Part shown: positions 22,664 to 48,651 of the stretch, one piece after another | Layout of the letters: each line of letters begins with the position of its first letter | Position numbering within the stretch: position 1 is the first letter of the stretch | Source of the DNA: Microcaldota archaeon | GTDB taxonomy: Archaea; Micrarchaeota; Micrarchaeia; Anstonellales; Anstonellaceae | Assembly (NCBI GenBank): GCA_021814005.1 | Contig: JAKAJC010000007.1 | Location: 1 to 51,027, forward strand | Direction: 5' to 3' | Length of the DNA stretch: 51,027 nt | Made by a program: the position numbers and the translations under genes | Notes under the pieces: generated by a model | The model's database searches: none | Told to the model about the DNA's origin: nothing | Seen by the model: only the letters and a program-made list of their open reading frames with translations

Positions 22664-22684
22664 TTGCGGCACCATCATCTTCTA

Positions 22685-23899
22685 ATGGGCTTAATCACCA
22701 AGTGCCGAGTCTGCGATTCATCCAAGCTTCAAATGGCCATCGATTTGGGCGACCAGCCGTGGGGGAACCATTTCCTCAAGCCGGACGAAGTCGGCCGCGA
22801 GCCGAAATACCCTCTTCAGGTGGTGTGGTGCCAGGACTGCCATGCCGCCCAGCTCAATTTCACAGTGCCAAAAGAGGTGATGTTCGGAGACCATACCTAT
22901 CTCTCCGGAGTTACCAAAACTTTGAGCGCCCACTTCATGCAGGAAGCCGTATTGATGGATGCATGTTTTCCAAAAAGCACTGACAAATGCGTGCTCGACA
23001 TCGGTTCAAACGACGGCACCCAGCTCAAACAGTACAAGGCATTGGGCTGGAGCGTGCTGGGCGTGGAATCGTCCAAAACAACCGCCCTTATCGCGAACGT
23101 GGCCGGAATACCGACTGTAAACGAATTCTTCAATCTCGAGGTCGGCCGCAAGATGGGAAAGAAATTCGATGTCATCAACGCGGCCGGAGTTTTCTATCAT
23201 CTTGAGGAGCTCCATTCAATCACAGACGCAATCCGCGAATCCCTCAAGGCGGACGGCATATTCTCGGTCCAGTTCATGTACATGAAGCATGTGCTGGAAA
23301 ACCTCACATTCGACCAGATATACCATGAGCATCTTCTCTACTACAATCTTGCCACCCTGCAGCGGCTTTTGGAGCGCCACGGGCTGGAAATATTTGACTC
23401 GCATTTCTCGCAGTCTCACGGCGGCTCCGTGGTCGCGTACGCGTGCCACAAGGGAGCCAGGCCGCCCAGCGCCAAATTCAAGGCAATGCTGGCGGACGAG
23501 GAGCGGACGGGCTGCAACACCCTGGAGGCATACAAGGAGCTGGCCAAAAAAATCGAAGAGGTCAAGGCGAACAATCTGGCATTTTTGAAAAAAGCGAAAG
23601 CCGCGGGCAAGCGCATCTACGGCATGGGCGCGCCTGTCAAGGGCAACACGCTACTGAATTACTTCGGCATCGGCACGCAGTATCTGGACGTGCTGGTTGA
23701 GAAAAACCGCCTGCGAAAAGGCCTTATCTCGCCCGGCATGCACATACCGGTTGTAATTGAGGACGAGCTCACTGTCACTCCCGACGTCTACTATGTGCTG
23801 GCCTGGAATTTCAAGAAAGAGATTCTGGCCAACAACGCGGAGCTTATACGCAAGGGAGTGGAATTCTATTTCCCGCTAGATCCAAAGGATTTGGCCTGA
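22685..23899 (+). CDS. Sugar C-methyltransferase (zinc-ribbon, SAM-dependent)
   Basis: This 404-residue protein has the three-part layout of nucleotide-sugar C-methyltransferases such as TylC3/NovU/EvaC: an N-terminal zinc-binding domain (CRVCDSS and CQDCHAAQL), a SAM-binding domain (VLDIGSNDGTQLKQYKALG, about 97-115), and a C-terminal Methyltransf_14-type domain (YGMGAPVKGNTLLNYFGIG). Such enzymes add a methyl branch to a 4-keto-deoxysugar nucleotide, usually at C3. The island supplies GDP-, CDP- and dTDP-4-keto sugars, so the substrate is open. Confidence 0.9.
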   Translation: MGLITKCRVCDSSKLQMAIDLGDQPWGNHFLKPDEVGREPKYPLQVVWCQDCHAAQLNFTVPKEVMFGDHTYLSGVTKTLSAHFMQEAVLMDACFPKSTDKCVLDIGSNDGTQLKQYKALGWSVLGVESSKTTALIANVAGIPTVNEFFNLEVGRKMGKKFDVINAAGVFYHLEELHSITDAIRESLKADGIFSVQFMYMKHVLENLTFDQIYHEHLLYYNLATLQRLLERHGLEIFDSHFSQSHGGSVVAYACHKGARPPSAKFKAMLADEERTGCNTLEAYKELAKKIEEVKANNLAFLKKAKAAGKRIYGMGAPVKGNTLLNYFGIGTQYLDVLVEKNRLRKGLISPGMHIPVVIEDELTVTPDVYYVLAWNFKKEILANNAELIRKGVEFYFPLDPKDLA

Positions 23900-25090: not shown

Positions 25091-25753
25091 ATGAACGTCT
25101 CGTCTTACGAAACCGACATTCTGGAGATTCTTCACAACATCAAGCATCAAATTCCAGAAACCCGGGCCCACACGCTCATCCCTGTTTATGACAATGGCGT
25201 GCGGGTGGCGCACCTGCGGCTGATAACCTCGGCCGATTTGGGCAGGCCTGAACTCATCCAGCTTCTGGCAAAATGGCGCACCGTGCACGAGCACTGGTTC
25301 CCGGCCCAATTCAAGGTGACCGCCGAGGGCACAAAACGCTGGCTGGAACTGGGCGTGCTGGAATGCAAAGACCGCATCCTCTTCATGCTCGAAGACGAGC
25401 GGAACCAGCCGATAGGGCACATGGGCTTTTACCGTTTCAATTTTGCTGAGCGCCATTGCGAGATAGACAATGTCGTGCGCGGCGAGGCAGCCAAACCCGG
25501 CATAATGACTCCCGCACTGCAGGCGCTGATGCGCTGGGGCCTTGACGTGTTCCAGCCTGCCGAACTCCGCCTTTCAACATATGCTGAAAACGACAAAGCC
25601 ATCTCGCTCTACAAGCGCTGCGGCTTTGAGCCTTATGACAAAACCCCGCTGGTCGCTTCCCGCACTCCGGAGCGCGTGGATTGGGTGCCGGCCAAGGCCG
25701 GGCAGGAGGGCGAGCGTTATTCGCTCTGGATGCGCTTTAAGCCAAATCAATGA
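25091..25753 (+). CDS. GNAT acetyltransferase in sugar cluster
   Basis: The 220-residue protein has a GNAT fold: RILFMLEDERNQPIGHMGFYRFN (strands 3-4), REV-like CEIDNVVRGEAAKPGIMTPALQALMRWGLDVF, and LRLSTYAENDKAISLYKRCGF, a strong GNAT motif B. About 65 N-terminal residues are extra. Because it precedes two PLP aminotransferases, it probably N-acylates an amino sugar, as PseH/WecD-type enzymes do. The substrate is inference. Confidence 0.85.
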   Translation: MNVSSYETDILEILHNIKHQIPETRAHTLIPVYDNGVRVAHLRLITSADLGRPELIQLLAKWRTVHEHWFPAQFKVTAEGTKRWLELGVLECKDRILFMLEDERNQPIGHMGFYRFNFAERHCEIDNVVRGEAAKPGIMTPALQALMRWGLDVFQPAELRLSTYAENDKAISLYKRCGFEPYDKTPLVASRTPERVDWVPAKAGQEGERYSLWMRFKPNQ

Positions 25754-25768
25754 TTTTAGGCGACTCTT

Positions 25769-26929
25769 ATGCAGCTGTCCACACCAAAAGCATCCGAAGA
25801 AATAGAGCATCCCGACATCCGCGTGATGTCAATCGAGTGCGAAAAAGTGGGCGGCATCAATCTTTCACAGGGTGTGTGCGACACGCCGACGCCTCCGGCC
25901 GTTCTCGCGGGGGCCAAGGCCGCGATGGACAAGGGGCTCAACCATTACACCCGCTACGACGGCATACCTGAATTGCGCAAAGCCATCGCCCAAAAAGCGG
26001 ACAAGTTCAACCACATAAAAGCGGACGCCGAATCCGAGATTGTGGTGTCTGCCGGTGCCACAGGCGCGCTTTTTTCCGCCATGCTGGCGCTTCTTCAAAG
26101 CGGGGACGAAGTGGTTTTGTTCGAGCCGTATTACGGCTATCACCTCCAGACAATTCTTGCGGTCGGCGCGCGGCCGCGCTATGTGCGGACCACTCCTCCG
26201 GACTGGAATTTCGAGCTGGCCGATTTGGAGCGCGCGATTACGCCGAAAACAAAAGCCATCATCCTCAACACCCCCTCAAACCCTTCAGGAAAAGTGTTCA
26301 CGCGCGAAGAGCTAAACCAAATCGCCGATGTCTGCGAAAAGCACGACCTGCTGGTGTTTACTGACGAAATCTACGAATATTTCACATATGACGGCGTCGA
26401 GCACATCAGTCCGGCCTCCCTGCCGAAACTGCGCGGGCGGACCATCACCATATCGGGCCCGTCGAAAACATTCAGCATCACCGGCTGGCGTGTCGGCTAC
26501 TGCATCTGCGGCCTGGAGCAGAAAGAGCGCATAGGCAACGCGAACGACCTTCTTTACGTATGCTCACCTTCCCCGCTGCAGGCCGGAGTGGCGGCGGGCA
26601 TGGAAAGCCTGCCGGCCTCGTTTTACGAATCGCTGTGCAAAATGTACAAGACAAAGCGGGACATGCTCTGCCAAACTCTCAAAACAGCCGGCCTTACACC
26701 ATATGTTCCAAAAGGGGCCTACTATGTGCTGGCTGATGTCAGCCGCCTGCCGGGCAGCGGCAGCAAAGAGAAGGCGATGCACCTGCTCCGCACCGCCGGA
26801 GTTGCGACTGTTCCGGGCCGGGCGTTTTATCATGATAAAAGCGGCGAGCACCTTGTGCGCTTCTGCTTTGCAAAAAACGATTCGGATTTGCAGGAAGCCT
26901 GCGCGCGCCTGCGCAAACTGAAAATTTGA
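25769..26929 (+). CDS. Class I/II PLP-dependent aminotransferase
   Basis: This 386-residue fold-type I enzyme resembles the aspartate/aromatic aminotransferase family. It has GGINLSQGVCDTPTPPAV, HYTRYDGIPELRKAIA, IILNTPSNPSGKVFTREEL, FTDEIYEYFTYDG and the PLP-lysine segment SGPSKTFSITGWRVGY. This family acts on amino acids rather than nucleotide sugars, so its presence here may supply an amino donor, make a keto acid for the ThDP or aldolase enzymes, or provide an amino acid decoration. It lies 15 nt after the GNAT gene. Confidence 0.92.
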   Translation: MQLSTPKASEEIEHPDIRVMSIECEKVGGINLSQGVCDTPTPPAVLAGAKAAMDKGLNHYTRYDGIPELRKAIAQKADKFNHIKADAESEIVVSAGATGALFSAMLALLQSGDEVVLFEPYYGYHLQTILAVGARPRYVRTTPPDWNFELADLERAITPKTKAIILNTPSNPSGKVFTREELNQIADVCEKHDLLVFTDEIYEYFTYDGVEHISPASLPKLRGRTITISGPSKTFSITGWRVGYCICGLEQKERIGNANDLLYVCSPSPLQAGVAAGMESLPASFYESLCKMYKTKRDMLCQTLKTAGLTPYVPKGAYYVLADVSRLPGSGSKEKAMHLLRTAGVATVPGRAFYHDKSGEHLVRFCFAKNDSDLQEACARLRKLKI

Positions 26930-26951
26930 TTTGCTTGAACGGGGGATTTCT

Positions 26952-28082
26952 ATGGAAAAGAAATATTCTACAAAGAAAATCAGTTTCGCCGGCCCGTGGA
27001 TTACGAAAAAAGAGGAGGAATACATGCTCGACGCCGTCCGGAACGGCTGGTACGCGACATTTGACAAGGACATAATCCTCTTCGAGAAAACCATGCGCGA
27101 CTACATGGGCATGAAGCACGCGCTCGGCACCCATTGCTGCACCCAGTCGCTGCATCTTGCCGCCGCTTCCATGGGTCTGGGCGCAGGGGACGAGGTGATA
27201 TGCACCGATTTCTCCTGGGTGGCCACGGCCTACTCATTTGTCTACACCGGCGCAAAGGCGGTGTTTGTGGACATCGACCCCGACAGCTGGTGCATCGACC
27301 CTGCCGCCATCGAGAAAGCCATCACCCCGAAATCGAAGGCAATCATGCTGGTGCACACCTTCGGACATCCAGCGCAGATGGACGAAATCATGGAAATCGC
27401 GCAGAAGCACAACCTGCGCGTGATTGAGGATGCCGCGCCGTCTCTTGGCGCCAAATTCAAGGGCAAACTTGTCGGAACTTTTGGCGATGTCGGCTGCATC
27501 AGCTTTCACGGTGCAAAAATCGCGGCTTCGGGCGAAGGCGGCGTTTTCCTGACAAACAACGACGAGTTATACGAAAAGGCCAAACTGCTCGCATCGATGG
27601 GCCGCACAGACTCCAAGGCCGTATTCTGGTCAGACCAGGTCGGTTACCAGTACACAATCGGCAACCTCCCCGCAGCCATGGCGCGGGCGCAGGTGGAGCG
27701 CATCGACGAACTGGTGGCAAACAAGAGGAAAATCTTTGACTGGTATTACGAACGCCTGGGCGACGTGGAAGGCATCAAGATACTCAAGGAGAAAAAAGAC
27801 TGTTTTTCGAACTATTGCTATCCTTCCATGCTGCTTGAGGATTCGCTCAAGTGCGACCGGGACGAGCTCATCCGTCAGTTGAAGGCCCGCAACATCCATC
27901 CGCGCCCCGCGTTCCCCCGCATGAGCCGCTTCCCGATGTTCGAAGCGCGGTTCCCCAATCCGGAAAGCGCTTTGGTGGAGCGCAGGGGAGTCTCGCTGCC
28001 GGCAGCGCACAATCTGGTGGAAGAGGACGTGGATTTCGTGTGCGAAAGCATCCTCGAGCTGACCGGCAAGAAATCGAAATAG
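26952..28082 (+). CDS. DegT/DnrJ/EryC1 sugar aminotransferase
   Basis: The 376-residue protein is a nucleotide-sugar aminotransferase of the ArnB/PerA family. It has NGWYATFDKDIILFEK, GDEVICTDFSWVATAYSFVY, VIEDAAPSLGAKFKGKLVG and the PLP-lysine segment ISFHGAK (Lys about 189). With Gmd in the island, GDP-perosamine synthesis is the leading guess, followed by N-acetylation by the GNAT protein; CDP- or dTDP-4-keto sugars are other candidates. The ATG at 26952 is chosen by homology. A T-rich tract (28091-28119) follows. Confidence 0.93.
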   Translation: MEKKYSTKKISFAGPWITKKEEEYMLDAVRNGWYATFDKDIILFEKTMRDYMGMKHALGTHCCTQSLHLAAASMGLGAGDEVICTDFSWVATAYSFVYTGAKAVFVDIDPDSWCIDPAAIEKAITPKSKAIMLVHTFGHPAQMDEIMEIAQKHNLRVIEDAAPSLGAKFKGKLVGTFGDVGCISFHGAKIAASGEGGVFLTNNDELYEKAKLLASMGRTDSKAVFWSDQVGYQYTIGNLPAAMARAQVERIDELVANKRKIFDWYYERLGDVEGIKILKEKKDCFSNYCYPSMLLEDSLKCDRDELIRQLKARNIHPRPAFPRMSRFPMFEARFPNPESALVERRGVSLPAAHNLVEEDVDFVCESILELTGKKSK

Positions 28083-28121: not shown

Positions 28122-29936
28122 TCAGCTGTCCCAGCCCTCGTACATGTCAATGAGCATGTTCTCCTTGAGCTCTTTTCTCGGCAGGAGCGGAGTCAAATCC
28201 TCCAGCGGCCTGCTCACCAGCTGGCCTTGCTCATTCTGATAGGTGCTGCCTTTGGTGTCAAGCCCTTTTTTGGGCGACATCATCACTTCGCACATCGCAG
28301 CGCCCTTGATTGAGAGGAATTCCTTGATTTGCTTCTGCAAATCAGCATTGTTTGTCAGGCGGCGGTAAGGCAGCCCGTACGCAACAGATATCTTTTCCAT
28401 GTCCGGCAGGCCGACTCCCGTGTCCGGGTCGGTGGCCACGAAATGCGAATTGAACAGGTTCTTCTGAGTTTCGCGAATGGACAAATATCCGAAATTGTTT
28501 ATCACAAATATTTTGATTGGCAGGTGGTAATGCACTATGGTCTGGAGTTCCTGGATGTTGAGCTGTATGCTTCCATCCCCCGCCAGGCAGACAATCTGTT
28601 TCTGCCGCCCTTCGGCAACCGCGGCGCCTATCGCGGCCGGAAGGTCGTATCCCATCGACGCGCATCCGGAATTGAAAATCACCCTCTGCCCGGATTTGAT
28701 GTCAAACGCCTGGTAGGGGCCGATGCACGCGAATCCATCGGTGCATACCACTGTCTCATTCTCTTTCATCGCATTGGACAGCTCCTTGACAAACGCATAG
28801 AGATTGACATAGTCTTTCTCCTTGTAATGCTCAGGGCGCACAACCGGATATTTCGCGTTTATTTTCATGCAATACTGCATCCATTCCTTTTTTTCAGCCA
28901 GCCCGCCGCTCCCCACTTTGTCAAGCAGTTTCTGTATGAAAACAGCGGCGTCCGCCACCACTGGCATGTCGGGATGAATTGTGGGCTTTCGCAATTCGGC
29001 CTCATCAATGTCAACAACAATCTTGTAAGCCGCCCTTGCGAACATCTTGTAATTATAGCTCACCATGCGCGTGTTGAGCCTGGTGCCGATGCACAAAAGC
29101 AAATCAGAATTCTGCACGATGAAATTCCCGCCTCTGGGGCCCAGCGTCCCCTGCCTTCCCTGATAATATGGGTTATTTGCCTCAATCAGGTCAAAGCCGG
29201 TGAATGAGGTGATTACCGGCACCTTGAGTTTTTGCACCAGTTCAAGCAATTTTTCCTGCGCGTGCGCGATGCGGATTCCTTTTCCAATCAAAAGGACCGG
29301 CCGCTTGGCCTTTGCGAGCCGCGATGCCGTGTCCTGCACCTGTTTGTCGAGTCTGGCCATGTCGGCATTTTCTTTCATCTCGCTCCTGTCAAATCCCCTG
29401 AGCTTGTCGGGTTCAATCTGCGATGACTGCACGTCGAGCGGAATGTCAATCCAGCAAGGCCCGGGCCGCCCATGGCGCGCGAGATAGAACGCTTTTTCCA
29501 GATGATAGCGGATGTCTTGGGGGTTGTCGACAACTGCCGCGTATTTTGTGACCGGCTTGACCATGTCGATGATATTGATTTCCTGGTCGCCAAGCTGGCG
29601 CAATTCAGGGAACGGGCGCATGGTTTCGCGCTTGACCTGTCCTGATACCACCACGCTGGGCACAGAATCCAGCCACGCCCCTATGACGCCTGTAAGCGTA
29701 TTGGTGCTGCCCGGCCCTGTTGTGACAAGCGCCACTCCCACATCTCCCCTGTCCCGCGCATATCCTTCCATTGCCATGGCGCACGCCTGCTCATGCAGGT
29801 TGCACACATATTTGATTTTTCCATGGCTGCCAAGGCTGTCTATGAGGTGCATGCAGCCGCCGCCAGACAGGGTGAAGATGTCGTGCACGCCTTGGCGGTA
29901 AATGAAGTCAATCACATAATCGGAGAGTTTAGTCAT
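28122..29936 (-). CDS. ThDP-dependent acetolactate synthase-like enzyme
   Basis: The 604-residue protein is a thiamine diphosphate enzyme of the acetohydroxyacid synthase superfamily. It has the N-terminal activating Glu in NLHEQACAMAMEGYAR (about 46-62), TTGPGSTNTLTGVIGAW, and the C-terminal ThDP/metal motif GDGSIQLN...NN with 24 residues between. It is last in an operon with rfbF and rfbG, so a sugar substrate is likely. The closest known precedent is YerE, which transfers a two-carbon unit from pyruvate to CDP-4-keto-3,6-dideoxyglucose in yersiniose synthesis. Ordinary branched-chain amino acid synthesis is less likely, as no small subunit or ilvC is near. Confidence 0.85.
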   Translation of the reverse strand: MTKLSDYVIDFIYRQGVHDIFTLSGGGCMHLIDSLGSHGKIKYVCNLHEQACAMAMEGYARDRGDVGVALVTTGPGSTNTLTGVIGAWLDSVPSVVVSGQVKRETMRPFPELRQLGDQEINIIDMVKPVTKYAAVVDNPQDIRYHLEKAFYLARHGRPGPCWIDIPLDVQSSQIEPDKLRGFDRSEMKENADMARLDKQVQDTASRLAKAKRPVLLIGKGIRIAHAQEKLLELVQKLKVPVITSFTGFDLIEANNPYYQGRQGTLGPRGGNFIVQNSDLLLCIGTRLNTRMVSYNYKMFARAAYKIVVDIDEAELRKPTIHPDMPVVADAAVFIQKLLDKVGSGGLAEKKEWMQYCMKINAKYPVVRPEHYKEKDYVNLYAFVKELSNAMKENETVVCTDGFACIGPYQAFDIKSGQRVIFNSGCASMGYDLPAAIGAAVAEGRQKQIVCLAGDGSIQLNIQELQTIVHYHLPIKIFVINNFGYLSIRETQKNLFNSHFVATDPDTGVGLPDMEKISVAYGLPYRRLTNNADLQKQIKEFLSIKGAAMCEVMMSPKKGLDTKGSTYQNEQGQLVSRPLEDLTPLLPRKELKENMLIDMYEGWDS

Positions 29937-29967
29937 AATTCCAGCCTCTTTCTTTTGGTCCGGCCCG

Positions 29968-31038
29968 TTATTTCAGCAGGGCGCGCAGTTCGGCAATGGC
30001 CGCGCTGAATTCTTCAGCAGTGAAATCATCAACTTTCTCCACCTTGAAATTCTGCCGCGGCAGGACAAGGCTCAATCCGCTTCCTACGCGTTTTTTGTCT
30101 TTTTTCATGGCCTCAAGAATGCGGGTCTCGCCATCAAGATGCAAATCACTGGTATTTAATGTGATATTGGGCCTGACGCATTCCGCAATCTGCCCGAAGC
30201 GGGCTGCGGTTATGCTGCCGCGTTTTTTCGAGGCGATGGCGGCGAAAAGGATGCCGGCCATTACGCCTATTCCATGCGGCACCCGGTAATCCGATGCTGT
30301 CTCAAGAGCATGGCCGAAGCAATGGCCGTAATTGAGCAGATTGCGCCTGCCCTTGTCGAATTCGTCTTCCTGAATAAATTCGGCCTTGATGCGGAGGCTT
30401 TTTTGCACAATAAGCCCGATTTTTTTGCTGTCATCTTTTCTTATGCGCGCTAGCCCGCCGATTGCGTCGAGGTCGGCCTCGCTTTTCGCGTCAATGAGGT
30501 GCAGTTTCACGACCTCTCCCATTCCGCTGTGAAAGTCAAGGTCAGAGAGCGTCTTTACGAACGACGTTTCGATGAAAATGCTCTTGGGCGGACAGAATGT
30601 GCCGAGCAGATTTTTGTATTGCTTGTAATTGAGCGAGGTTTTTCCCCCGATGCAGCTGTCGGCCTGCGCCAGCAGCGTGGTCGGCACAAAGCACCAGTCA
30701 ATGCCGCGATAGAGCGTCGAGGCCGCAAATCCGGCCACATCCTGTGTGATGCCCCCTCCAATCGCAACCAGAGTCGAGTTGCGCTTGGCCGCGCGTTCAA
30801 TCATCTTGTCATAAATCAGATTCGCCCCGTCCAGACTCTTGTTCTCTTCAGTCGCCTCAAAGCTGATTATTGCCTCTTGTGGTATTGCCGAGAGCTGTTT
30901 GGAATAGAGCCGCTGGACGTTGGCGTCGATGACATACGCCGCATTGGGCATGGCGGCGAGACTGCGCACGAAATCGAATTCCTGGCCGAAAAAAGCCGAA
31001 TATGGTCCAGTCCGAGACTTGATTTCCAACTTTAACAC
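29968..31038 (-). CDS. AroB-like sugar phosphate cyclase / 3-dehydroquinate synthase family
   Basis: The 356-residue protein has the DHQS-family motifs: NAD-binding GGGITQDVAGFAASTLYRGI, PTTLLAQADSCIGGKTSLN, the metal-site GMGEVVKLHLI and NYGHCFGHALE, and PHGIGVMAGILF. The start is a GTG at 31038 overlapping the stop of the SDR gene. The context is a sugar operon without other shikimate genes, and archaea usually make dehydroquinate by another route. It may therefore cyclise a sugar phosphate or keto sugar, as 2-epi-5-epi-valiolone-type synthases do. True DHQ synthase activity is the main alternative. Confidence 0.88.
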   Translation of the reverse strand: MLKLEIKSRTGPYSAFFGQEFDFVRSLAAMPNAAYVIDANVQRLYSKQLSAIPQEAIISFEATEENKSLDGANLIYDKMIERAAKRNSTLVAIGGGITQDVAGFAASTLYRGIDWCFVPTTLLAQADSCIGGKTSLNYKQYKNLLGTFCPPKSIFIETSFVKTLSDLDFHSGMGEVVKLHLIDAKSEADLDAIGGLARIRKDDSKKIGLIVQKSLRIKAEFIQEDEFDKGRRNLLNYGHCFGHALETASDYRVPHGIGVMAGILFAAIASKKRGSITAARFGQIAECVRPNITLNTSDLHLDGETRILEAMKKDKKRVGSGLSLVLPRQNFKVEKVDDFTAEEFSAAIAELRALLK

Positions 31039-31709
31039 GATGTGAAGCCTCCGTCCGCGATGATAATCTGCCCCGTAAGATAAGTGTTGTCTTCAGAGAC
31101 GAGAAATCTCACCACTTTGGCGATTTCATCCGGCTGGGCGAAGCGGCGCAATGGAATGTTGGGCAGGATTATTTTGCGGTCCTCCTCGCCAACGTTCTTT
31201 CTGGTGAGCTCGGTCTCGGTATAGCCCGGGCAGACCGAATTTACCAAAATGTTGTAAGGCCCCAATTCGACTGCCAGTGCTTTGGTGATTCCGTTGATGC
31301 CGAATTTGGTGGCCGAATAGACGGTGCGCTTTTCCTTTGAAACAACGCCGAATATGGAGCTGATGTTGACGATTCGCCCCCATTTCTTCTGTTTCATGCC
31401 CGCGCTGGCCATGCGCGCGAGCTTGAGCGGGCCTACGAGGTTGACCGCCATCATCTCGTCAATGTCATTGTCTTTGATGGCTTCGAGCGGGGAGATGTTG
31501 TTGATGCCCGCCACATTGATTAGTATGTCAAAAGAAGCTCCCTGGTTTTTTTCCAAAAATCTGGCCAGTGATTTGTCATCTGCCAAATCAAGCTCTGCCC
31601 GCTCGGGCGCCACCACTTCGTAGCCCGCGCCGGCCAGCTCGTTTTTTATGGCCTCGCCGATGCCCCGGCTTCCGCCGGTCAGTAGGACTTTTCGTTTTTT
31701 CATTGTCAT
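31032..31709 (-). CDS. Short-chain dehydrogenase/reductase (FabG-like)
   Basis: The 225-residue classical SDR has LTGGSRGIGEAI (TGxxxGIG), the NVAGINN segment, catalytic Ser in NISSIFG and the YSATK Tyr/Lys pair, and ends in GGFTSC. The ATG at 31709 overlaps the upstream aldolase stop (TAATG), and its own stop overlaps the AroB-like start, showing tight coupling. It likely reduces a keto group made by a neighbouring enzyme. The frame stays open farther upstream, but that part lies inside the aldolase gene. Confidence 0.92.
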   Translation of the reverse strand: MTMKKRKVLLTGGSRGIGEAIKNELAGAGYEVVAPERAELDLADDKSLARFLEKNQGASFDILINVAGINNISPLEAIKDNDIDEMMAVNLVGPLKLARMASAGMKQKKWGRIVNISSIFGVVSKEKRTVYSATKFGINGITKALAVELGPYNILVNSVCPGYTETELTRKNVGEEDRKIILPNIPLRRFAQPDEIAKVVRFLVSEDNTYLTGQIIIADGGFTSC

Positions 31710-32527
31710 TACCCGCACAATTTGTCGATATTGGTGACCTCGTTTCTGAGGCGCTTCTGCAGCATCTCGATGCGCACGTCGTCCTCTTTGAAGATGCGGC
31801 CGTAATACTCCTTCTTGAGCTGCAGCCACAAAAGCTCGAATTCGACTGCTTTGAGAATTCCGTCATGGAGCTCCAATCGGTCGCTCTTCGGATTCTCGAA
31901 CACAACCTTGCGCGTTTCGTACCTGTCAAGAATGCCTTTCTTGGCGAGGCGCTGGATGAAGTCGATTGAATCTGTGGAGATGCCGCCGCCCATGCAGCAG
32001 CGGAACCCCTTTGCTTTTGATTTGGTGAATATGTCTTCGCAGACAGCGTACATCTCCTCGCCGTTGATTTTGTCGCGGCCGAGGTCCAGCGAGCCGCTCA
32101 TGTCCACCCTGCCCAGCACGATGTTCTTGAGCTTGTTGATGCCCTTCTCGGCGTAAATCGCATCAAGGTTCTGGTGCGCGGTCTTTGTCTCTACGTTGAT
32201 GCCGAACTCGATGCTTTCCTTCTCTTCGGGCGTGATGTGCTTGTCGAGCGCCTGAAGGAACTTGCGGGCGGCATACGGAGTCTCCACCATCGGCGCCACG
32301 ATTCCGCTCACGCCCAGATGCATTGCCTCGTAGAGGTTGCTCAGCGCCTCGGGCCCGCCGATTTTGATGACAAGGCCGACGTCGCTCTCCTGCGCAATCT
32401 CCTTGAGCCGCATCAGCTCGTTCATGCGCGAGGCTTCGGTCTCGAATTCAGCCTTGAGCATGACAACCGAATAGTCTTTTTTCATCTGCTTCAAAAGTTG
32501 GACCAGACTGCATTCCAGTTTGTTCAT
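31709..32527 (-). CDS. HpcH/HpaI aldolase or citrate lyase beta family protein
   Basis: The 272-residue protein resembles class II pyruvate aldolases and CitE-like lyases: VVMLKAEFETEASR, IKIGGPEALSNLYEAMHLGV, the metal-site VAPMVETPYAARKF, and GRVDMSGSLDLG, matching the conserved Glu and Asp ligands. Such enzymes make or break C-C bonds next to a pyruvoyl or acyl group. The ATG at 32527 has GAGTG 6 nt before it. It is coupled to the SDR downstream and follows rfbG by 36 nt. The substrate is unknown. Confidence 0.82.
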   Translation of the reverse strand: MNKLECSLVQLLKQMKKDYSVVMLKAEFETEASRMNELMRLKEIAQESDVGLVIKIGGPEALSNLYEAMHLGVSGIVAPMVETPYAARKFLQALDKHITPEEKESIEFGINVETKTAHQNLDAIYAEKGINKLKNIVLGRVDMSGSLDLGRDKINGEEMYAVCEDIFTKSKAKGFRCCMGGGISTDSIDFIQRLAKKGILDRYETRKVVFENPKSDRLELHDGILKAVEFELLWLQLKKEYYGRIFKEDDVRIEMLQKRLRNEVTNIDKLCG

Positions 32528-32563
32528 ATGCATCACTCAGCCGTATTTCAGTATTTTTTGCGC

Positions 32564-33556
32564 TCAGGCCTTTTCGTACCTGTCGAAATAACGGGAATAC
32601 CACTTAATCGTTTCCTTCAAGCCCTCTTCCAGCCCGTACTGGGCCTTCCACCCAAGAATCTCGCGCGCCTTTTTGGCCGAGAGGTGCTGGGCGCGGATTT
32701 CATGCACCGGCTTGTTTTCGATAATTGGCGTGATTTTTGTCTTGCCCATGAGCTTGGCGATGAGCTCCACCAGTTCGAGCACGTTCTTCTGCGTTTCGTT
32801 TGAGAAATTGAACGCCTCTCCCTTCATTTTTGGATTGTATTTTTCGGCCAGTGTGAGATAAGCCGACACCGCGTCCTTGACATAAATATAATCGCGAATC
32901 ATTTTGCCGTCCGAGCGCACAATTGGCCTCTCGTTGTTGCGCAGAAGTTTGATGGTGCCCGGCACTATGCGGTTGAAATTGAGGTCTCCGCCGCCGAAGA
33001 AATTGCCGCACCTGCTTATCGTGACCGGCAAGCCGTAGGTCTGGGCATAAGTCTGCGCGATGAGGTCGGCGCAGCTCTTGGAGCAGTCGTACGGGTGGCG
33101 GCCCTGCAATGCCATGTCCTCGGTGTATGGAAGATTTTCATGCTCGCCATAAGCTTTGTCTGATGATGCCACCACTATGTTTGCAATCTCTTTCTCATGG
33201 ACGCGGCAGGCTTCCAAAAGATTCCACGTGCCGCGGATGTTTGCCTCGAAAGTGGGAAGTGGCGAGCGGTTGGCCTGCGGAACCAGAGTCTGCGCGCCCA
33301 GATGGAATACAACCTGCGGTTCGTATTCGTTGATGGTGCGTTCCAGAACCCAATAATCTTCCAGCGAGCCCCTCACGCAGCGGACGCGCTTGTCAAAACC
33401 CTCATCCAAAAAACGTGAGCCTGGCACATGGTCGCGCACAAGGCAGACCGGCTCGGCTCCGCGCTCCAGCAGCTCTTCGACCAGCCAGGAGCCGACCAGC
33501 CCGCTGGCGCCGGTGACGAGCGCGCGCTTGCCTTTCCAAAATGCTGAAGAAGCCAT
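32564..33556 (-). CDS. rfbG: CDP-glucose 4,6-dehydratase-like SDR
   Basis: The 330-residue extended SDR has KRALVTGASGLVGSWLVEEL, the active-site SSDKAYGEHE (family form SSDKxY), PYDCSKSCADL (Tyr/Lys) and RIVPGTIKLLRNNERPIVRSDG, the last typical of RfbG. It should convert CDP-glucose to CDP-4-keto-6-deoxyglucose. The ATG at 33556 has AGGTG 5 nt upstream and overlaps the rfbF end by a few nucleotides short of it. The pairing with RfbF and RfbH supports the call. Confidence 0.9.
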   Translation of the reverse strand: MASSAFWKGKRALVTGASGLVGSWLVEELLERGAEPVCLVRDHVPGSRFLDEGFDKRVRCVRGSLEDYWVLERTINEYEPQVVFHLGAQTLVPQANRSPLPTFEANIRGTWNLLEACRVHEKEIANIVVASSDKAYGEHENLPYTEDMALQGRHPYDCSKSCADLIAQTYAQTYGLPVTISRCGNFFGGGDLNFNRIVPGTIKLLRNNERPIVRSDGKMIRDYIYVKDAVSAYLTLAEKYNPKMKGEAFNFSNETQKNVLELVELIAKLMGKTKITPIIENKPVHEIRAQHLSAKKAREILGWKAQYGLEEGLKETIKWYSRYFDRYEKA

Positions 33557-33564
33557 AGCCGCAC

Positions 33565-34362
33565 CTACCATATTCTCCAGGGCACGTGCCCCGAATCCCA
33601 CATCCGGTTGAGGTCCAGATAATCTTTGTAAGTGTCCATCATGTGCCAGAATCCCTCGTATTTGTAAATTCCAAGCTGGCCCTCCGATGCGAGGCGGCCC
33701 AGCGGCTCGCGCTCAATCATGCAGCTCTCGTCGTCTTTTATCCAGTCGAACATCTCTTTTTTGAAAACATAATATCCGGCATTGACATATTCGTCGATTT
33801 TGGGCTTCTCGCGGAACCGGATGACCTTGTCGCCGTCCAAATCCATCAGCCCGAACCGGCTTGGGGGGCGCACGCCCGTGAGCACTCCGATGCGGCCGCT
33901 CTTGGCATGGAAATCGGCCAGCGTGCTGATGTTGATGTCCGACACTCCGTCGCCATACGCGACCATGAATCGGTCGGTGTCAACATATTTCTGGATGCGC
34001 TTGATGCGCGCCCCGGTCTGGGATTTGAGGCCGGTGTCGGCGAATGTGATGGTCCAGTCGTCCTCGGGCCCAAGGCGGTGAATCTGGTCTTCCTGTCGCC
34101 TGCCCATGCGGAGCGTCAAATCGTTGGACATGAGGTCGGAGTGGAGGAAATACTCCTTGATGCTCTCGCCTTTGTAGCCGAGGCACAGAATGAAGCGTTT
34201 GAACCCGAATTTCGAGTAGCCCTTCATTATGTGCCAGATAATCGGCTTGCCTCCGACCGTGACCATGGGCTTGGGCTTGAATTCGGTCTCCTCGCGCAAG
34301 CGGGTGCCCTCACCCCCGCACAAGATGACCACTGGAATGTCACTGGGTTTCTCTCCTCCCAT
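33565..34362 (-). CDS. rfbF: Glucose-1-phosphate cytidylyltransferase
   Basis: RfbF makes CDP-glucose from CTP and glucose-1-phosphate. The 265 residues include the nucleotidyltransferase signature VVILCGGEGTRLREETEFKPKPMV, IIWHIMKGYSKFGFKRFILCLGY, FMVAYGDGVSDINI (metal Asp), and GYYVFKKEMFDWI. The ATG at 34362 gives the expected N terminus; the frame stays open far upstream only because it overlaps rfbH. It is the first gene of a six-gene minus-strand operon. Confidence 0.96.
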   Translation of the reverse strand: MGGEKPSDIPVVILCGGEGTRLREETEFKPKPMVTVGGKPIIWHIMKGYSKFGFKRFILCLGYKGESIKEYFLHSDLMSNDLTLRMGRRQEDQIHRLGPEDDWTITFADTGLKSQTGARIKRIQKYVDTDRFMVAYGDGVSDINISTLADFHAKSGRIGVLTGVRPPSRFGLMDLDGDKVIRFREKPKIDEYVNAGYYVFKKEMFDWIKDDESCMIEREPLGRLASEGQLGIYKYEGFWHMMDTYKDYLDLNRMWDSGHVPWRIW

Positions 34363-34416
34363 GACGCTATTGGGCCGTCTGTAACTTTTAAGGATTTGGT
34401 TGCCTAATGCTATCCT
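34363..34416. promoter_or_regulatory. Bidirectional 54-bp promoter (rfbF / rfbH)
   Basis: CTTTTAAG (34385-34392) lies midway between the divergent ATGs, 26.5 and 28.5 bp from each. It reads as a TATA-like box on both strands, so rfbH and the rfbF operon would be co-regulated and leaderless. Confidence 0.65.
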
Positions 34417-35745
34417 ATGCCCGATGCGAAACCAGACGCCCATCAACTGCGCCGGCAGATTCTGGACCTCACCCGCCAGTTCTACGCGCAGGCGCACAAA
34501 CCGGCACCGTATAAGCAGGGCGGCAAAATACCCTATGCAGGCCGCGTTTTTGACGAGAACGAGCTCGTCTCGCTGGTCGACTCCTCCCTGGATTTCTGGC
34601 TCACGGCCGGGCGTTTCAGCGCCCGCTTCGAGAAAGAGCTGGCGGCCTACACCCATCACAAGCATGCGCTCTTTGTCAATTCCGGCTCGTCTGCCAATCT
34701 GGTGGCTCTCTCCGCCCTCACCTCCCCGCTCATGGGGTCCCGCCGGATTCGGGCCGGGGACGAAGTCATCACCTGCGCCGCCTCTTTTCCCACCACTGTC
34801 AATCCAATCCTGCAAAACGGCGCAGTTCCTGTCTTTCTTGATGCTGAGGTCGGCACCTACAACATGGATTTGAGCCGTCTGGAGGAGGCGCTCAGCGACA
34901 AGTCGCGCGCCGTGATGGCGGCGCACTGCCTCGGCAACCCGTTTGATTTGGACAAGCTTGTTTCATTCTGCAAAAAGCACGAGCTGTTTTTAGTGGAGGA
35001 CTGCTGCGATGCGCTGGGCGCGACCTGGGACGGGAAACTGGTCGGCACTTACGGCGATGTCGCGACACTCTCATTCTACCCCGCCCATCATATTACGACT
35101 GGTGAGGGCGGGGCAGTGCTCACATCCAGCGCCCTCATCAAACGCGCGGCCGAATCCATGCGCGACTGGGGCCGCGACTGCTGGTGCGTTCCCGGCGCTG
35201 ACAACACCTGCGGCAAGCGCTTCGGCTGGCAGCTTGGCGATTTGCCGTTCGGCTATGACCACAAATACACCTATTCGCACGTGGGTTACAATCTCAAGGC
35301 AAGCGACATGCAGGCGGCGGTGGGCTGCGAGCAGCTCAAAAAAGCCGACGCATTTGTGGCCGCCCGCCGCAAAAACCACGCCTATCTTCTCAAAGCCCTT
35401 AGTGCGTATGACTCATACTTCATTCTCCCGCGCTCGCTTCCCAAGGCAAATCCATCGCCGTTCGGTTTCGTGCTCACCGTGCGCGAGGACGCGGGTTTCA
35501 CACGCAACGAAATCACGGCACATCTGGAAAAATCGGGCATTGCCACGCGTCTTTTGTTTGCCGGCAACATCCTCAAGCAGCCGGCCTACCGCGGAACAAA
35601 GCACCGCGTGGTTGGCGAATTGAGGGGCGCAGACCAGATAATGAACAACTCGTTCTGGGTTGGCGTTTATCCCGGCCTTGGGCAGGCGCAACTGGATTTC
35701 ATGATAGAGCGCATCAGCTCGTTTGTCAAGCAGAAGAAAAATTAG
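34417..35745 (+). CDS. rfbH: CDP-4-keto-6-deoxyglucose-3-dehydratase (E1)
   Basis: RfbH removes the C3 hydroxyl from CDP-4-keto-6-deoxyglucose using PMP and an iron-sulfur centre. The 442-residue protein has [12 protein letters not shown] (His 224/225) where ordinary aminotransferases have the PLP lysine. It also has cysteines at 197, 255, 257 and 265, matching the E1 spacing C-x57-C-x1-C-x7-C for a [2Fe-2S] cluster. Its usual reductase partner (E3, RfbI) is not in the window. It is transcribed divergently from rfbF-rfbG, completing the trunk to CDP-3,6-dideoxyhexoses. Confidence 0.96.
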
Positions 35746-40023: not shown

Positions 40024-40215
40024 ATAATTTCTTTCTTTTTTCAAAATCGAACTTTTCTGGCTCGCGCTAAGAATAGTAAAATTCGTACGCGATCAAGAAT
40101 AAACCCGAAGACATGTGTGAGTTTTGCTAAAGTCATCTCCTTTGCACTTGCTAGACGATCTCATTGATCGCTATCTATCTGTCCATACTCTATCTATGCG
40201 AATAGTTAGAGTTTT
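40024..40215 (-). other. 16S rRNA 3' trailer
   Basis: No gene is seen. The stretch holds the downstream arm of the 16S processing stem (ACGCGATCAAG, 40087-40097), which is the perfect inverse of CTTGATCGCGT at 41818-41828, and T-runs after rmlD (40026-40042). Confidence 0.7.
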
Positions 40216-41744
<1,529 letters not shown>

Positions 41745-42844: not shown

Positions 42845-45800
42845 ATGTGGTAAGCTGTTTAACATCATTCAGTGGATGGCTAGGCTCTGGTAGAGCGAAG
42901 CACCGCGGCAAGCCGCGAAAGTACTGGGGGAGGCGCAGGCTGCCTGCGATCCCAGTGTCGTGCTGTGTCCTGCAATGGACGAAAACGCCGAGAATTAAAA
43001 CATTCTAGTAACGGCAGGAAAAGAAACCAATTGGGATTCGGCTAGTAAGGGTGACTGAACGCCGAAGAGCACGCACCGAATCCGACCTTGGCAACAGGGC
43101 GGAGATGTGGGGTGGACGAACCATGATCGAGAGCACAAGCGCCTGGAACGGCGCGCCATAGAGAGTGATAGCCTCGTGTGCGAACCGGTCGCGGTGGGAA
43201 ACCAAGCGAGTAGTGCCCCTCGGGTTTGGGGCATGAATATGGGGGCATCAACCTCCAATGCTAAATATAACCAGAGACCGACAGCGAATGAGTATCGCGA
43301 GAGAATGCTGAAAAGTTCCCCGGAAGGGGGATGAAAAGATCCTCAAACTGAATGAATACAGGTTGATACGGCGCGGAAGGAATGTAGTCTCCAAAAGTGG
43401 ACGTCTGCAAAGCCGTTTGCGATGGAGATGTAACAGTGTCGTATCGTTCTTCTCGAAGCAAGAGCCAGGGAGTTGCTGCTGCGTGGCAAGGCGAAAGCCG
43501 AAGCGAAAGCGAGTGCGCGCATCGTAAGAAAGGCGCGTCGTCTGAATAGGGCGATCAGTCACTCTCAGCAGACCTGAAGCCGATGTGATCTATGCGTGGA
43601 CAGGACGAAGCCCGCCTGACGGCGGGTGGAGGTCCGCTACCGGTGCTAGTATATTCTGCTCGGGTGATCTACGCATAGGGGTGATAGTCCAATCGAACTC
43701 GGCAATAGCGGGTTCCCCCCGAAATGCCCCTCAGGGCAGCCTCGCTGGAGGCAAATGGTGGGGTAGGGCACTGATCATTGGGCGCGGGCTCGAAAGGGCT
43801 CACCTGATTGTCAAACCCCGAATCTACCATTACCTACGAAGGCGGGAGTCGGGCTCTACTGGGTAAGCTAGTAGGCCGTTGCGGGAACAACCGGAACTGG
43901 GGTTAAGGTCCCTAAATTCAGGCTAAGTGTGAATTGCAAAAGCGTTTGCGGTCCTATACAGCTGGAAGGTAGGCTTAGAAGCAGCCATCCTTTAAACAAC
44001 GCGTTATAGCGGACCAGTCTAGATCGCAGATTCTTAAGATGATCGGGGCTAAGCCTGATACCGAGACCTCAGCGCATCAACCTTAACGGGTCGATGTCGT
44101 GTAGGGGGGCGGGCTGATGGGGTCGAAGCCGGGGAGTAATCTCCGGTGGACCGGTCAGTCACGAATATCCTGGTACTAGTAACAGCTAATCCAGGTGAAA
44201 ATCCTGGGCGCCGCATAGCACACGGTTTTCTGGGCCACGTTTGTCAGCCCAGAGTAAGGCGGTCCTAAGTGCACGGGTAATTCCCAGTGCGCAAAAGGGA
44301 AACCGGTTAAAATTCCGGTCCGAATCAGATAGACGCGGCAACGCTAACATCTACTCTTGACGGTTTGGGATAGGGAAGGTGGGGGAGACCCCATTTAACT
44401 TCGACAGAGCCTTGGAGACTCATTAGGAGGAGAAGAGGTTCAATCGGAGGTAGGCCTCACGGTCTTCCTGATTCCCGGACTCCATGAAAAGAGCGTAGAT
44501 GCGATTCTGATTCACCGTACCTAGAACTACTACAGGTGCTGCTGGCTGAACAAGCCAAGGCGTGTCGGGACAATTCAGCAAAGGGAACTCGGCAAACTAG
44601 CCGCGTAACCTAGGGAGAAGCGGTGCCTGCCTTTGTGTTGAGCATAGGCAGGCCGCAGTAACAAGGGGAGGTCGACTGTTTATCAAAAACACAACTCGCT
44701 GCTAACCGGAAACGGTCTGTATAGCGGGTGACGCCTGCTCACTACTGGTACGTGAACGCCTGTTTCAACGGGCCTAAGCGCCAGCAAAGAGCGGGGGTAA
44801 CTCTGACCCTCTTAAGGTAGCGTAATACCTCGCCGCTTAATTGGTGGCTTGCATGAAGGGCGTAACGAGCCTCCCGCTGTCCCTTGCTGGAACCCGGTGA
44901 ACTTACTACTCAGTGAATATGCTGAGGACTCCCAGTGGGAAACGAAGACCCCGTGGAGCTTTACTATAGCCTGATGTTGTGATATAGGGCTGCTAACGCA
45001 GCGTAAATGGGAGCCGTTATGCCGGTCTTTTCGGGGGCCGGATAGGCGCAAGTGTAACACCATTTTAGCGGTCTTGTATTACTTACGGAAACGGACAGCG
45101 TCAGGTGGATAGTTTGGCTGGGGCGGTACACCCTCGATAAGGAAACAAGGGTGCCCAATGCTCGACTTAGGCGCGTCAGAAATGCGCTGGTAAGGGTCAA
45201 AGACAAATGTCGGGCTGACGGTGTTCTTAAAAGCGTGGAACGCCGAGACGAAAGTCAGGCTTAGCGAACCTTGATATCCCGTTGATGAGGATTCAAGCTG
45301 TCAGACAAGCTACCCCGGGGGTAACAGGCTCGTCGCGGGCGAGAGATGGACAAGTTCCGTTTTTCGCATGCGTCGCAATCTGTTTCCTTCAATTGTAAAT
45401 TCCCAACTGGAAAAATTAATAGCGGGAAGCCTTAAGCAAGCAACCCGCGCCAAAATAAAACACATTTCCAACCTCTTACTATCTGTCGATGTATAGATAA
45501 TAGGTGTTGGGATACTACAAGGAAACGAATGGATTGTGACGTTATTGTGGAATTTGTTCACTCAAATACACATCGACCCCGCGGTTTGGTACATCGCTGT
45601 CGGCTTAGGTCATCCTGGTGGTGCATAAGCCACCAAAGGTTGGGTTGTTCATCCATTAAAGACCTACATGAGCTGGGTTCAGAACGTCGCGAGACAGTTC
45701 GGTAGTATCTACTGGGAGTGTTGCCACCTGAGAGGAAGAACCCATGAGTACGCGAGGAACTTGGGTCCGGCGCCTCTGGTCTACCGGTTGTGTCAAGCAT

Positions 45801-45975
45801 TGCCGGGCAGCTACGCGCTATCTGATAAGACCTGAATGCATCTAAGGTCGAAGCAGGTCTCAAAACGAGGTGGTTAAGGGGCGGATAGCAGATCCGTTTG
45901 ATAGAGCGGGGGTGTACGCACTAAGCGCAAGCGAGGTGTTCAGCCCGCCGCCACTAAACCCTATTACCACATCTA
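42845..45975 (+). rRNA. rrl: 23S ribosomal RNA (with insertion in helix 89)
   Basis: The sequence matches archaeal 23S from CAGTGGATGGCTAGGCTC near the 5' end, through GGGGGTAACTCTGACCCTCT, CCTCGCCGCTTAATTGG-type peptidyl-transferase elements, GACGAAAGTCAGGCTTAGCG and the sarcin-ricin loop AGTACGCGAGGAACTTGGGT (45746-45765, local variant). Ends are approximate. About 220 nt interrupt helix 89 (see 45347-45565). No 5S gene follows. Confidence 0.96.
45347..45565 (+). other. Probable archaeal intron in 23S helix 89
   Basis: The helix 89 sequence GCGGGCGAGAG ... CATCGACCCCGC is interrupted by about 220 nt of AT-richer sequence. The ends of the insert pair (GGACAAGTTCC at 45348-45358 with GGAATTTGTTC at 45549-45559, 11 bp with G-U pairs), and GAG/CTC just outside leaves 3-nt bulges, as in a bulge-helix-bulge splice site. 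It has no endonuclease ORF. Boundaries are approximate to a few nucleotides. Confidence 0.65.
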
Positions 45976-46017
45976 GTCTTAAGTCTGGCTGCCTACGAAA
46001 TTTTTTATTTTCAAACT
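45965..46017 (+). repeat. 53-bp direct repeat, copy A (23S 3' processing arm)
   Basis: The sequence from TACCACATCTAGTCTTAAGT to ATTTTCAAACT includes GTCTGGCTGCCTAC (45983-45996), the 3' arm of the 23S processing stem. It recurs at 46622-46675 with a single T inserted in the T-run. Confidence 0.9.
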
Positions 46018-46790: not shown

Positions 46791-47138
46791 ATGTCCAAAA
46801 CCAAAAAAACGGAGGACGAGCTCTTGGCCGCTCTTGCGCGCGCCTACTGCAATTTCTGCCAGAACAAAAAACTCAAAATCACCCGCACAATAAAAATCGA
46901 GTGCCAAAAATGCGGCAAGGTCCGGCTGATTCAGGCCAAGATTCAGCGCATTGGGCCGAAGCCGCTAAGCTCCCCAATCCCCTCTAACGCCGAAGAACAT
47001 TCTTTTTCACCCCGTAAAATAAGCCCGCGCCGGTTTCAACTCTACGTCGTTCTTCTCGGAAGTCCACGAAAGCTTTATATTTTATCCCTCTTTATACCCC
47101 GACGAAGAAGAAGTAACGTTGGAGGGATTCCACTATGA
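46791..47138 (+). CDS. Small zinc-ribbon protein
   Basis: The 115-residue frame starts MSKTKKTEDELLAALARAY and has a CNFC ... CQKC double-CxxC zinc ribbon with basic residues between (about 22-48), suggesting nucleic-acid binding. I cannot name a family. The C-terminal 50 residues are less convincing, overlap the promoter of the pilin gene (TTTATATTTTA at 47070-47080) and end 4 nt inside it, so the protein may have been extended by loss of an earlier stop. The frame is open upstream of the ATG, but this start fits the zinc-ribbon protein. Confidence 0.6.
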   Translation: MSKTKKTEDELLAALARAYCNFCQNKKLKITRTIKIECQKCGKVRLIQAKIQRIGPKPLSSPIPSNAEEHSFSPRKISPRRFQLYVVLLGSPRKLYILSLFIPRRRRSNVGGIPL

Positions 47139-47617
47139 CATTTGCAAGCCCAAAAGGTCAAGGCGCGACTGAATATCTCGTGCTTCTGGCCGTCGTGTTA
47201 ATTGTCGCCATGGTGGCGATCGCCCTCTTGGGTTTCTTCCCTGGCCTCTCGTATGATGCCAAGAAATCCGAGTCGGACTCCTACTGGCGCAGCGCCCGGC
47301 CTTTCCAGGTCCAGCAGCACACACAGCCTGCAGGCGGCAACCTGACGCTGGTCATCGGCAACGTTGACTCGGCTCAGCTCAAACTCACCAACGTCTCAGT
47401 TGCGGGTGGTGGATTCGCCGGCAGCTACACAACAGCTACCTACATTGCAGGCGGCCAGACTGCGACAATCTCAGTCGGCTGGACTACAAACGGCACATGC
47501 GCGTCAGGCACAGCGTACGAATACAACATCAACTTCAGCTATGATGGAACCGGCGACAACCCGGTCACCAATCAGAAGCAGTACGGTGCCAAGACGATTC
47601 TGGGCAAGTGCTCGTAA
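47135..47617 (+). CDS. Class III signal peptide pilin-like protein 1
   Basis: This 160-residue protein begins MTFASPKGQGATEYLVLLAV, a class III signal (short basic leader, QGATEYL, long hydrophobic helix) processed by EppA-type peptidases and used in archaeal pili. After the helix come SYWRSARPF and an Ig-like beta domain with cysteines near residue 127 (GTCASG) and 159 (LGKCS), a likely disulfide. A TTTATATTTTA box and GGAGGG precede the ATG. It is first of four tandem paralogues. Confidence 0.88.
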   Translation: MTFASPKGQGATEYLVLLAVVLIVAMVAIALLGFFPGLSYDAKKSESDSYWRSARPFQVQQHTQPAGGNLTLVIGNVDSAQLKLTNVSVAGGGFAGSYTTATYIAGGQTATISVGWTTNGTCASGTAYEYNINFSYDGTGDNPVTNQKQYGAKTILGKCS

Positions 47618-47625
47618 GGTCTAAA

Positions 47626-47653
47626 CCTTTTCTTTTTTCTTTTTTAATTTTTT
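47626..47653 (+). terminator. T-run terminator after pilin 1
   Basis: Four T-runs (TTTTC, TTTTTTC, TTTTTTAA, TTTTTTA) lie within 28 bp after the stop, as in archaeal factor-independent termination. Partial read-through to pilin 2 would set unequal amounts. Confidence 0.6.
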
Positions 47654-47678
47654 ATCAATCTAAATACGGGGTGGTGCT

Positions 47679-48143
47679 GTGCGCAAATATCTCTCGGGTC
47701 AAGGAGCTTCCGAATACCTGATTATCCTGGCAGTCGTGCTTATCGTTGCGCTGGTGGCCATCGCCCTCTTGGGCGCCTTCCCATCATTTGGCGGCGACGC
47801 CCGCATGAGCGAAACAAAGCAGTACTGGAGTTCTCAGACTCCCTTCTCAATACTCTCCTACAACCAGTACGGCTCCAACATGTCAATCACTCTGAAGAAT
47901 GTCGCCACAGACCTGCTGACCATCACCAACATCAGCATCGGCAACGTCACGGCCAATTATCCTTCCGGAATCTCGTTCAACGCGGGAGCCGAGAAGACCG
48001 TCACCATCTCCGGCTTTAGGAACTGCTCAGCCGTTGATTACGACTTCTTCCAGTACAACGTCGTAATCTACTACAACAGCTCCTACCTCGCCAACACCTT
48101 CAACGGCAACAAGCCGCTGATAGGAGCCTGCAACATCCAGTAA
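47679..48143 (+). CDS. Class III signal peptide pilin-like protein 2
   Basis: This 154-residue protein starts with GTG at 47679 (RKYLSGQGASEYLIILAV) after GGTG. It has the class III signal, the shared QYWSSQTPFSI motif about 30 residues after the helix, an N-glycosylation-rich beta domain, and cysteines in FRNCSAV and GACNIQ at positions matching pilin 1. It is the most typical member of the set. Confidence 0.88.
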   Translation: MRKYLSGQGASEYLIILAVVLIVALVAIALLGAFPSFGGDARMSETKQYWSSQTPFSILSYNQYGSNMSITLKNVATDLLTITNISIGNVTANYPSGISFNAGAEKTVTISGFRNCSAVDYDFFQYNVVIYYNSSYLANTFNGNKPLIGACNIQ

Positions 48144-48163
48144 ATCCTTTTTGGGTTTTTTTC

Positions 48164-48643: not shown

Positions 48644-48651
48644 GGTAGGCG

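Follow-up and report, generated by a model that had tools for sequence, protein, structure and literature searches.

The operon at positions 28122–35745 of the window, as we term the whole stretch of 51,027 nucleotides that was analysed, would make a CDP-activated 3,6-dideoxyhexose that carries a carbon branch at C4 and is modified by a cyclase and a short-chain dehydrogenase (SDR); we give this reading a probability of roughly 55%. That enzymes of the YerE type branch a CDP-sugar at C4 is already known; what appears to be new is the combination with a dedicated donor synthase and a TIGR04425–SDR pair. No description of a module with such a pair and a donor synthase of changing fold was found in the open-access literature searched. 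The orphan TIGR04425 family and the equally orphan YerE-like enzymes, for most of which the natural substrates are unknown, are brought together by the module in a single conserved pathway that can be tested.

All seven genes are intact, as judged from the open reading frame list and checks of their ends, with six on the minus strand diverging from rfbH on the plus strand across a gap of 54 bp. The sequence-only reading, which had the genes running in one direction with overlaps, holds at two junctions: the HpcH and SDR genes truly overlap (GGTAATGAC, TAATG), and the GTG start of the AroB-like gene sits within the stop region of the SDR gene (TCGTGTTAA). The other junctions are short gaps of 8–36 bp, namely 8 bp for rfbF/rfbG, 27–36 bp for rfbG/HpcH and 31 bp for AroB-like/ThDP. 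The window is one whole contig (G000:C34:1-51027) of a 1.2 Mb genome that is 92% complete. Since full-length archaeal 16S (40215–41743, minus strand) and 23S (42851–45976, plus strand) rRNA genes lie on this same contig, its archaeal origin is sound, and contamination or misbinning is very unlikely.

The trunk of the pathway consists of RfbF, RfbG and RfbH, which on strong grounds of family membership would convert their substrates to CDP-4-keto-3,6-dideoxyglucose. RfbH (34417–35745, plus strand, 442 aa), the CDP-4-keto-6-deoxyglucose 3-dehydrase, scores 694 bits with NF011936 against a curated cut-off of 423 and is 81% identical to the copy of a same-genus relative. The RfbF-like glucose-1-phosphate cytidylyltransferase (33565–34362, minus strand, 265 aa) reaches 299.3 bits with TIGR02623, for which the curated cut-off is 300.25, and is 73% identical to the same gene of that relative. 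The RfbG-like CDP-glucose 4,6-dehydratase (32564–33556, minus strand, 330 aa) is assigned by context: TIGR02622 is its best-matching family, though the score of 212.5 bits is below the curated cut-off of 278.45, and the protein is 55–70% identical to archaeal copies adjoining rfbF and rfbH.

The ThDP protein (28122–29936, minus strand, 604 aa) is predicted to be a YerE-like carboligase and not an acetolactate synthase. Its best solved relative is JanthE of Janthinobacterium sp. HH01 (PDB 8rph-8rpj), which matches it over the full length (449 bits with 8rph), with AHAS next at 245 bits. JanthE is itself a YerE-like enzyme, the physiological substrates of which are unknown (PMC12188165). The sequence-only reading had proposed a tree of this protein as a check; when E. 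coli IlvI, IlvB, PoxB, Gcl and Oxc are included, it groups with JanthE at 100/100, away from AHAS, the branches to the outgroups (AHAS, pyruvate oxidase, glyoxylate carboligase, oxalyl-CoA decarboxylase) being long. With the AHAS model TIGR00118 it scores 370 bits, below the cut-off of 538. Residue E49 and the GDG motif G453-D454-G455 are invariant or nearly so in 23 members of the family; the cofactor motif of JanthE, in contrast, is an unusual CDG (PMC12188165). The ThDP proteins of cyclase loci, that of the window among them, make up a single clade (97/93) when sampled through the cyclase, and those of archaeal relatives that lack a cyclase fall outside it. The only other PF02775 match in the genome is a 294-residue frame, the size of which would fit an oxidoreductase beta subunit. 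A tblastn search of plasmids with the ThDP protein gave no matches.

The AroB-like protein (29968–31038, minus strand, 356 aa, GTG start) likewise appears not to be the enzyme its generic Pfam name suggests: by score and tree it is placed in the uncharacterised NCBI family TIGR04425 and not among the DHQ synthases. It passes TIGR04425 at 406.3 bits (cut-off 400) and fails the true-AroB model TIGR01357 at 262 bits (cut-off 305), and a tree of 108 rows, among them AroB of archaeal relatives, separates the TIGR04425-like proteins from AroB at 100/100. It is the single DHQS-family protein of the genome, and chorismate synthase, detected in 14 of 14 control genomes, has no match in this 92% complete genome. 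TIGR04425 is named as an AroB-related putative sugar phosphate phospholyase (cyclizing), with no assigned reaction. All 13 DHQS positions checked, the numbering and roles of which we take to be those of the A. nidulans enzyme, are kept in the 65 TIGR04425-like proteins (12 of them in 65/65, K356 in 64/65 with one gap), and about twenty other positions are specific to the family, e.g. Q99, W115, C129, P150, G174 and C240. This pattern supports retention of the DHQS chemistry, with its steps of oxidation, phosphate elimination and reduction, on a different substrate. The DHQS residues presumed to lie on the carboxylate side are all present. A plasmid tblastn search with the protein returned mostly true aroB, and the two contexts examined there were shikimate genes. 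The SDR paired with the predicted cyclase (31032–31709, minus strand, 225 aa) matches PF13561/PF00106.

A genome scan with the AroB-like protein yielded 80 loci, 65 of them TIGR04425-like and 15 true-aroB controls. The former are spread over Lentisphaerota, Nitrospirota, Chlorobiota, Elusimicrobiota, Melainabacteria, Omnitrophota, Spirochaetota, Proteobacteria, Planctomycetota and others. The SDR adjoins the cyclase in 63/65 of them, while ThDP genes are found in 46/65, HpcH genes in 45/65 and rfbF/G/H in 28–30/65, many of these loci being short contigs. Of the 32 longest loci, all 32 have the SDR, 27 ThDP, 21 rfbF, 21 rfbG and 19 rfbH, and rfbF/G/H accompany about 60–65% of the longer module loci. 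None of the SDR, ThDP, HpcH and rfbF/G/H genes occurs in the 15 true-aroB loci (Fisher p = 2e-14 for SDR, 3e-7 for ThDP, 5e-7 for HpcH; full range 2e-14 to 8e-4). The same neighbours recur in the 65 cyclase loci and in none of the controls, so that chance falls far short of explaining the gene set. The four genes are also co-conserved with rfbFGH, the co-occurrence for which the sequence-only reading had proposed a search. The generic Pfam names would also suit an acetolactate synthase and a 3-dehydroquinate synthase of ordinary primary metabolism that came to lie in a sugar locus by chance. The sequence-only reading had named as its refutation a firm grouping with AHAS and DHQ synthase, complete pathways and no co-conservation; the trees, the curated scores (370 against 538, 262 against 305), the missing chorismate synthase in a 92% complete genome and the linkage to rfbFGH all point the other way, and an AHAS/AroB identity, which is refuted on these points, is left with only the slightest probability.

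The HpcH/HpaI-fold protein (31709–32536, with the start at 32527 or 32536, minus strand, PF03328) is the proposed maker of the 2-oxo-acid donor. Its structural model has a pLDDT of 95, and HpaI, SwHKA and other pyruvate/PEP-binding folds are among the nearest structures. In its family the metal ligands E116 and D145 are invariant, but His45 and Arg70 of HpaI are replaced by F31 and an invariant K58, a correspondence drawn from motif alignment. The combination of an HpaI-like fold and kept metal ligands with these replacements suggests a divergent pyruvate-handling enzyme and not a standard HpaI. A relative found in Ilyobacter belongs to a catabolic gene context that has no relation to this one.

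The distribution of this enzyme is informative as to its role. In 44 of the 46 ThDP loci there is one, and only one, enzyme out of three unrelated kinds: HpcH (38), NeuB-family (3) or HMGL/DRE-TIM (3). The other two are contigs of ~3 kb, so that every locus with enough flank has one. Enzymes with each of the HpcH, NeuB and DRE-TIM folds are known to condense aldehydes with pyruvate or PEP. Most of the cyclase loci that lack ThDP have no aldolase-type enzyme, the eight exceptions being on short or cut-off contigs. The YerE-like enzyme ErwE prefers 4-hydroxy-2-oxo acids, and the preference of MMAR_2332 is similar (PMC12247030). Since a condensing enzyme accompanies ThDP in all covered loci, is mostly missing without it, would supply the type of acid that ErwE prefers and is also paired with ThDP in archaeal relatives (see below), the most plausible role of the aldolase is to supply the ThDP enzyme with its donor. 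The statement of the sequence-only reading that the aldolase has no role in the YerE-type route is thus not supported, both because an aldolase-type enzyme is present in 44/44 adequately covered ThDP loci and because ErwE uses 4-hydroxy-2-oxo acids (PMC12247030).

From CDP-4-keto-3,6-dideoxyglucose the proposed pathway would continue as follows. Judging from the replacement of one fold by another and from co-occurrence, the HpcH-like enzyme would condense pyruvate with an aldehyde, probably phosphorylated, to a 4-hydroxy-2-oxo acid. The ThDP enzyme, by its kinship with JanthE and ErwE, would decarboxylate this acid and add the acyl group to the C4 ketone. The AroB-like enzyme might then, as a weaker proposal, oxidise the branch and eliminate its terminal phosphate, leading either to ring closure on the branch ketone or to a terminal-deoxy ketone, with the SDR reducing the ketone that remains. 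Finally, the branched sugar would pass to the surrounding surface-glycan genes. If the donor were a C7 3-deoxy-2-oxo acid 7-phosphate, the ThDP product would have its ketone and terminal phosphate at the spacing found in DAHP, which would allow ring closure by the cyclase. In M. marinum the caryophyllose branch is a 1,3,4,5-tetrahydroxyhexyl chain (PMC5706390); by analogy, this is the chain that would be expected from a C7 3-deoxy-2-oxo acid, and decarboxylated DAHP would have the same carbon chain. As far as sequence comparison goes, the residue differences of the HpcH-like enzyme (His45, Arg70) and the sub-threshold score of RfbG count against this explanation.

In the fullest version of this pathway, the aldolase would make a 2-oxo acid phosphate that is joined to C4, and a DHQ-synthase relative would close a carbocycle on the branch, giving a CDP-sugar with a 4-C-cyclohexyl substituent by a widespread route that is present in an archaeon. 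This version is put forward tentatively, as a possibility with the odds against it. If the carbocycle forms, this would be a new route to carbocyclic sugars directly on a nucleotide sugar. That the ThDP proteins of cyclase loci constitute one clade (97/93) suggests that the cyclase is coupled to the ThDP pathway. In a second class of loci ThDP is missing, and the cyclase and SDR are accompanied by SIS, Gfo/Idh, 2-hydroxyacid dehydrogenase and CTP_transf_3 genes; no description of the two TIGR04425 neighbourhood types was found in the literature searched. Eleven loci carry the cyclase and SDR with neither ThDP nor aldolase, most of them with a cytidylyltransferase of their own, and in the cyclase tree one ThDP-less group nests inside the ThDP-type clade. 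Because such ThDP-less loci exist, and one group is nested in this way, the substrate of the cyclase may be a small sugar phosphate and not the branch.

These loci bring in a rather unlikely alternative, by which the operon makes two parallel products: the aldolase, ThDP enzyme and RfbFGH would give an acyclic 4-C-branched CDP-sugar of the erwiniose/caryophyllose type, and the cyclase and SDR would separately make a cyclitol, from e.g. heptulose 7-phosphate or a DAHP-like acid, that enters the same glycan. It would account for the 11 loci and the nested group, for the preservation of all likely carboxylate-side DHQS residues, and for the cyclase and SDR being the tightest pair, with the strongest correlation of distances (r = 0.89; 0.67–0.76 for other pairs). 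It fits less well with the lack, in the window operon, of a second activating enzyme for the cyclitol, with the single clade of ThDP proteins and its implied coupling, and with the occurrence of ThDP in 27/32 of the longer cyclase loci.

The fate of the branch ketone bears on a further alternative. A putative branch-ketone reductase (extSDR6 or F10) is kept in 37/44 ThDP loci and is absent from this genome, so the ketone may often be reduced elsewhere instead of being consumed in ring closure. The AroB-like enzyme could then be a non-cyclising phospholyase: it would split off the phosphate at the end of the donor chain and, in concert with the SDR, yield an acyclic, caryophyllose-like sugar with a methyl group at that end. 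The methyl end of the caryophyllose branch (1,3,4,5-tetrahydroxyhexyl; PMC5706390) agrees with this proposal, as do the retained reductases. It is, however, improbable here, given that this genome has no such reductase to act on the branch. DHQS-type intermediates, moreover, cyclise readily when a ketone is free.

Returning to the preferred reading of a branched sugar modified by the cyclase and SDR, the archaeal relatives indicate how the module may have been assembled. In the same order, three loci without a cyclase (L138-L140) have rfbFGH, ThDP, a DRE-TIM aldolase and a probable acetaldehyde dehydrogenase; a fourth (L137) has rfbFGH, ThDP and a NeuB-like gene; and a fifth (L141) has rfbFGH and ThDP with neither an aldolase-type enzyme nor a cyclase. 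The sequence-only reading called the sugar one not described in archaea, which is fair, but this archaeal order also has simpler loci of the YerE type, and most instances of the full module are bacterial. RfbF, RfbG and RfbH are 73, 70 and 81% identical to the copies of archaeal relatives, whereas the best match found for the ThDP protein, a bacterial one, is no more than 52% identical, and only 1 of the 301 genomes of the phylum has the cyclase and HpcH genes. It is for these reasons that the trunk is probably native to the archaeal lineage and the ThDP–cyclase–SDR–aldolase cassette acquired; loss elsewhere in the phylum is possible, and less economical. In the same-genus relative, rmlABCD-like genes adjoin rfbH, rfbF, rfbG and the gene of a different ThDP protein, and the cassette is missing. 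The trunk in the window also lies beside rmlABCD-like genes. An archaeal surface-glycan locus would thereby alter its chemistry through cassette exchange on a conserved CDP trunk, as bacterial O-antigen loci do.

Among known systems, the CDP-yersiniose pathway of Yersinia pseudotuberculosis shares the CDP-4-keto-3,6-dideoxyglucose trunk and the ThDP carboligase subclass; YerE uses pyruvate directly, and that pathway, unlike the window, lacks a cyclase with its SDR partner as well as an aldolase. Among the archaeal loci, the simpler L141 is similar to this pathway. ErwE, for erwiniose, and MMAR_2332, for caryophyllose, are likewise ThDP ligases, which form a 4-C branch from hydroxylated 2-oxo acids (PMC12247030), but no cyclase has been described for them, and in the M. 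marinum literature searched no aldolase or cyclase is named in the caryophyllose cluster. Bradyrhizose is a bacterial carbocyclic higher-carbon surface sugar (PMC4743980), and the likeness is one of sugar type; in the available part of its description the proposed 11-gene cluster includes a dTDP-glucose 4,6-dehydratase (PMC4743980), unlike the CDP trunk of the window, and that part contains no matching genes, so that bradyrhizose was set aside as a known analogue.

The functional unit may extend beyond the seven genes. Three plus-strand genes of the window, a GNAT acetyltransferase (25091–25753, PF13302), a class I/II aminotransferase (25769–26929, PF00155) and a DegT-type sugar aminotransferase (26931–28082, PF01041), are probable members of an extended set. 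An Omnitrophota locus (L068) holds the whole module together with relatives of all three (35, 60 and 69% identity, respectively), which is why the unit may reach as far as 25091.

Loci of the AroB-like cyclase family TIGR04425 recovered in the genome scan include a second type, which lacks the ThDP gene (L044, L045, L046, L077, L084, L092, L094 and L096–L099). In these loci the cyclase and its paired SDR are surrounded by genes for SIS, Gfo/Idh, 2-hydroxyacid dehydrogenase and cytidylyltransferase proteins in varying mixtures, and in some of them aminotransferase genes are also found nearby; one is hosted by a Thermoplasmatales archaeon. The ThDP-less loci probably represent a separate unknown pathway, leading to an (amino)cyclitol or an ulosonate.

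In three cyclase-free loci of same-order archaeal relatives (L138, L139 and L140), an aldolase of the 4-hydroxy-2-oxovalerate type is accompanied by what is probably an acetaldehyde dehydrogenase, a ThDP protein and an extended SDR, a gene set that looks like an archaeal erwiniose-type pathway. The rfbFGH trunk is complete in L140, and L138 carries a fragment of rfbF where its contig ends.

The glycan locus shared with the operon also encodes an NDP-sugar C-methyltransferase (22664–23899, forward strand; PF08421/PF08484), which may introduce a further carbon branch onto a sugar.

Elsewhere in the window, a 114-base tRNA match (7407–7520, forward strand), not called by ARAGORN under bacterial settings, is probably an archaeal tRNA with an intron. 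The archaeal 16S (40215–41743, reverse strand) and 23S (42851–45976, forward strand) rRNA genes are divergent and separated by approximately 1.1 kb, rather than forming a single operon. Four successive forward-strand ORFs of about 160 residues each (47135–49137) begin with QGxxEYLxxLA-type segments that resemble archaeal class III signal peptides, as in pilin-like proteins.
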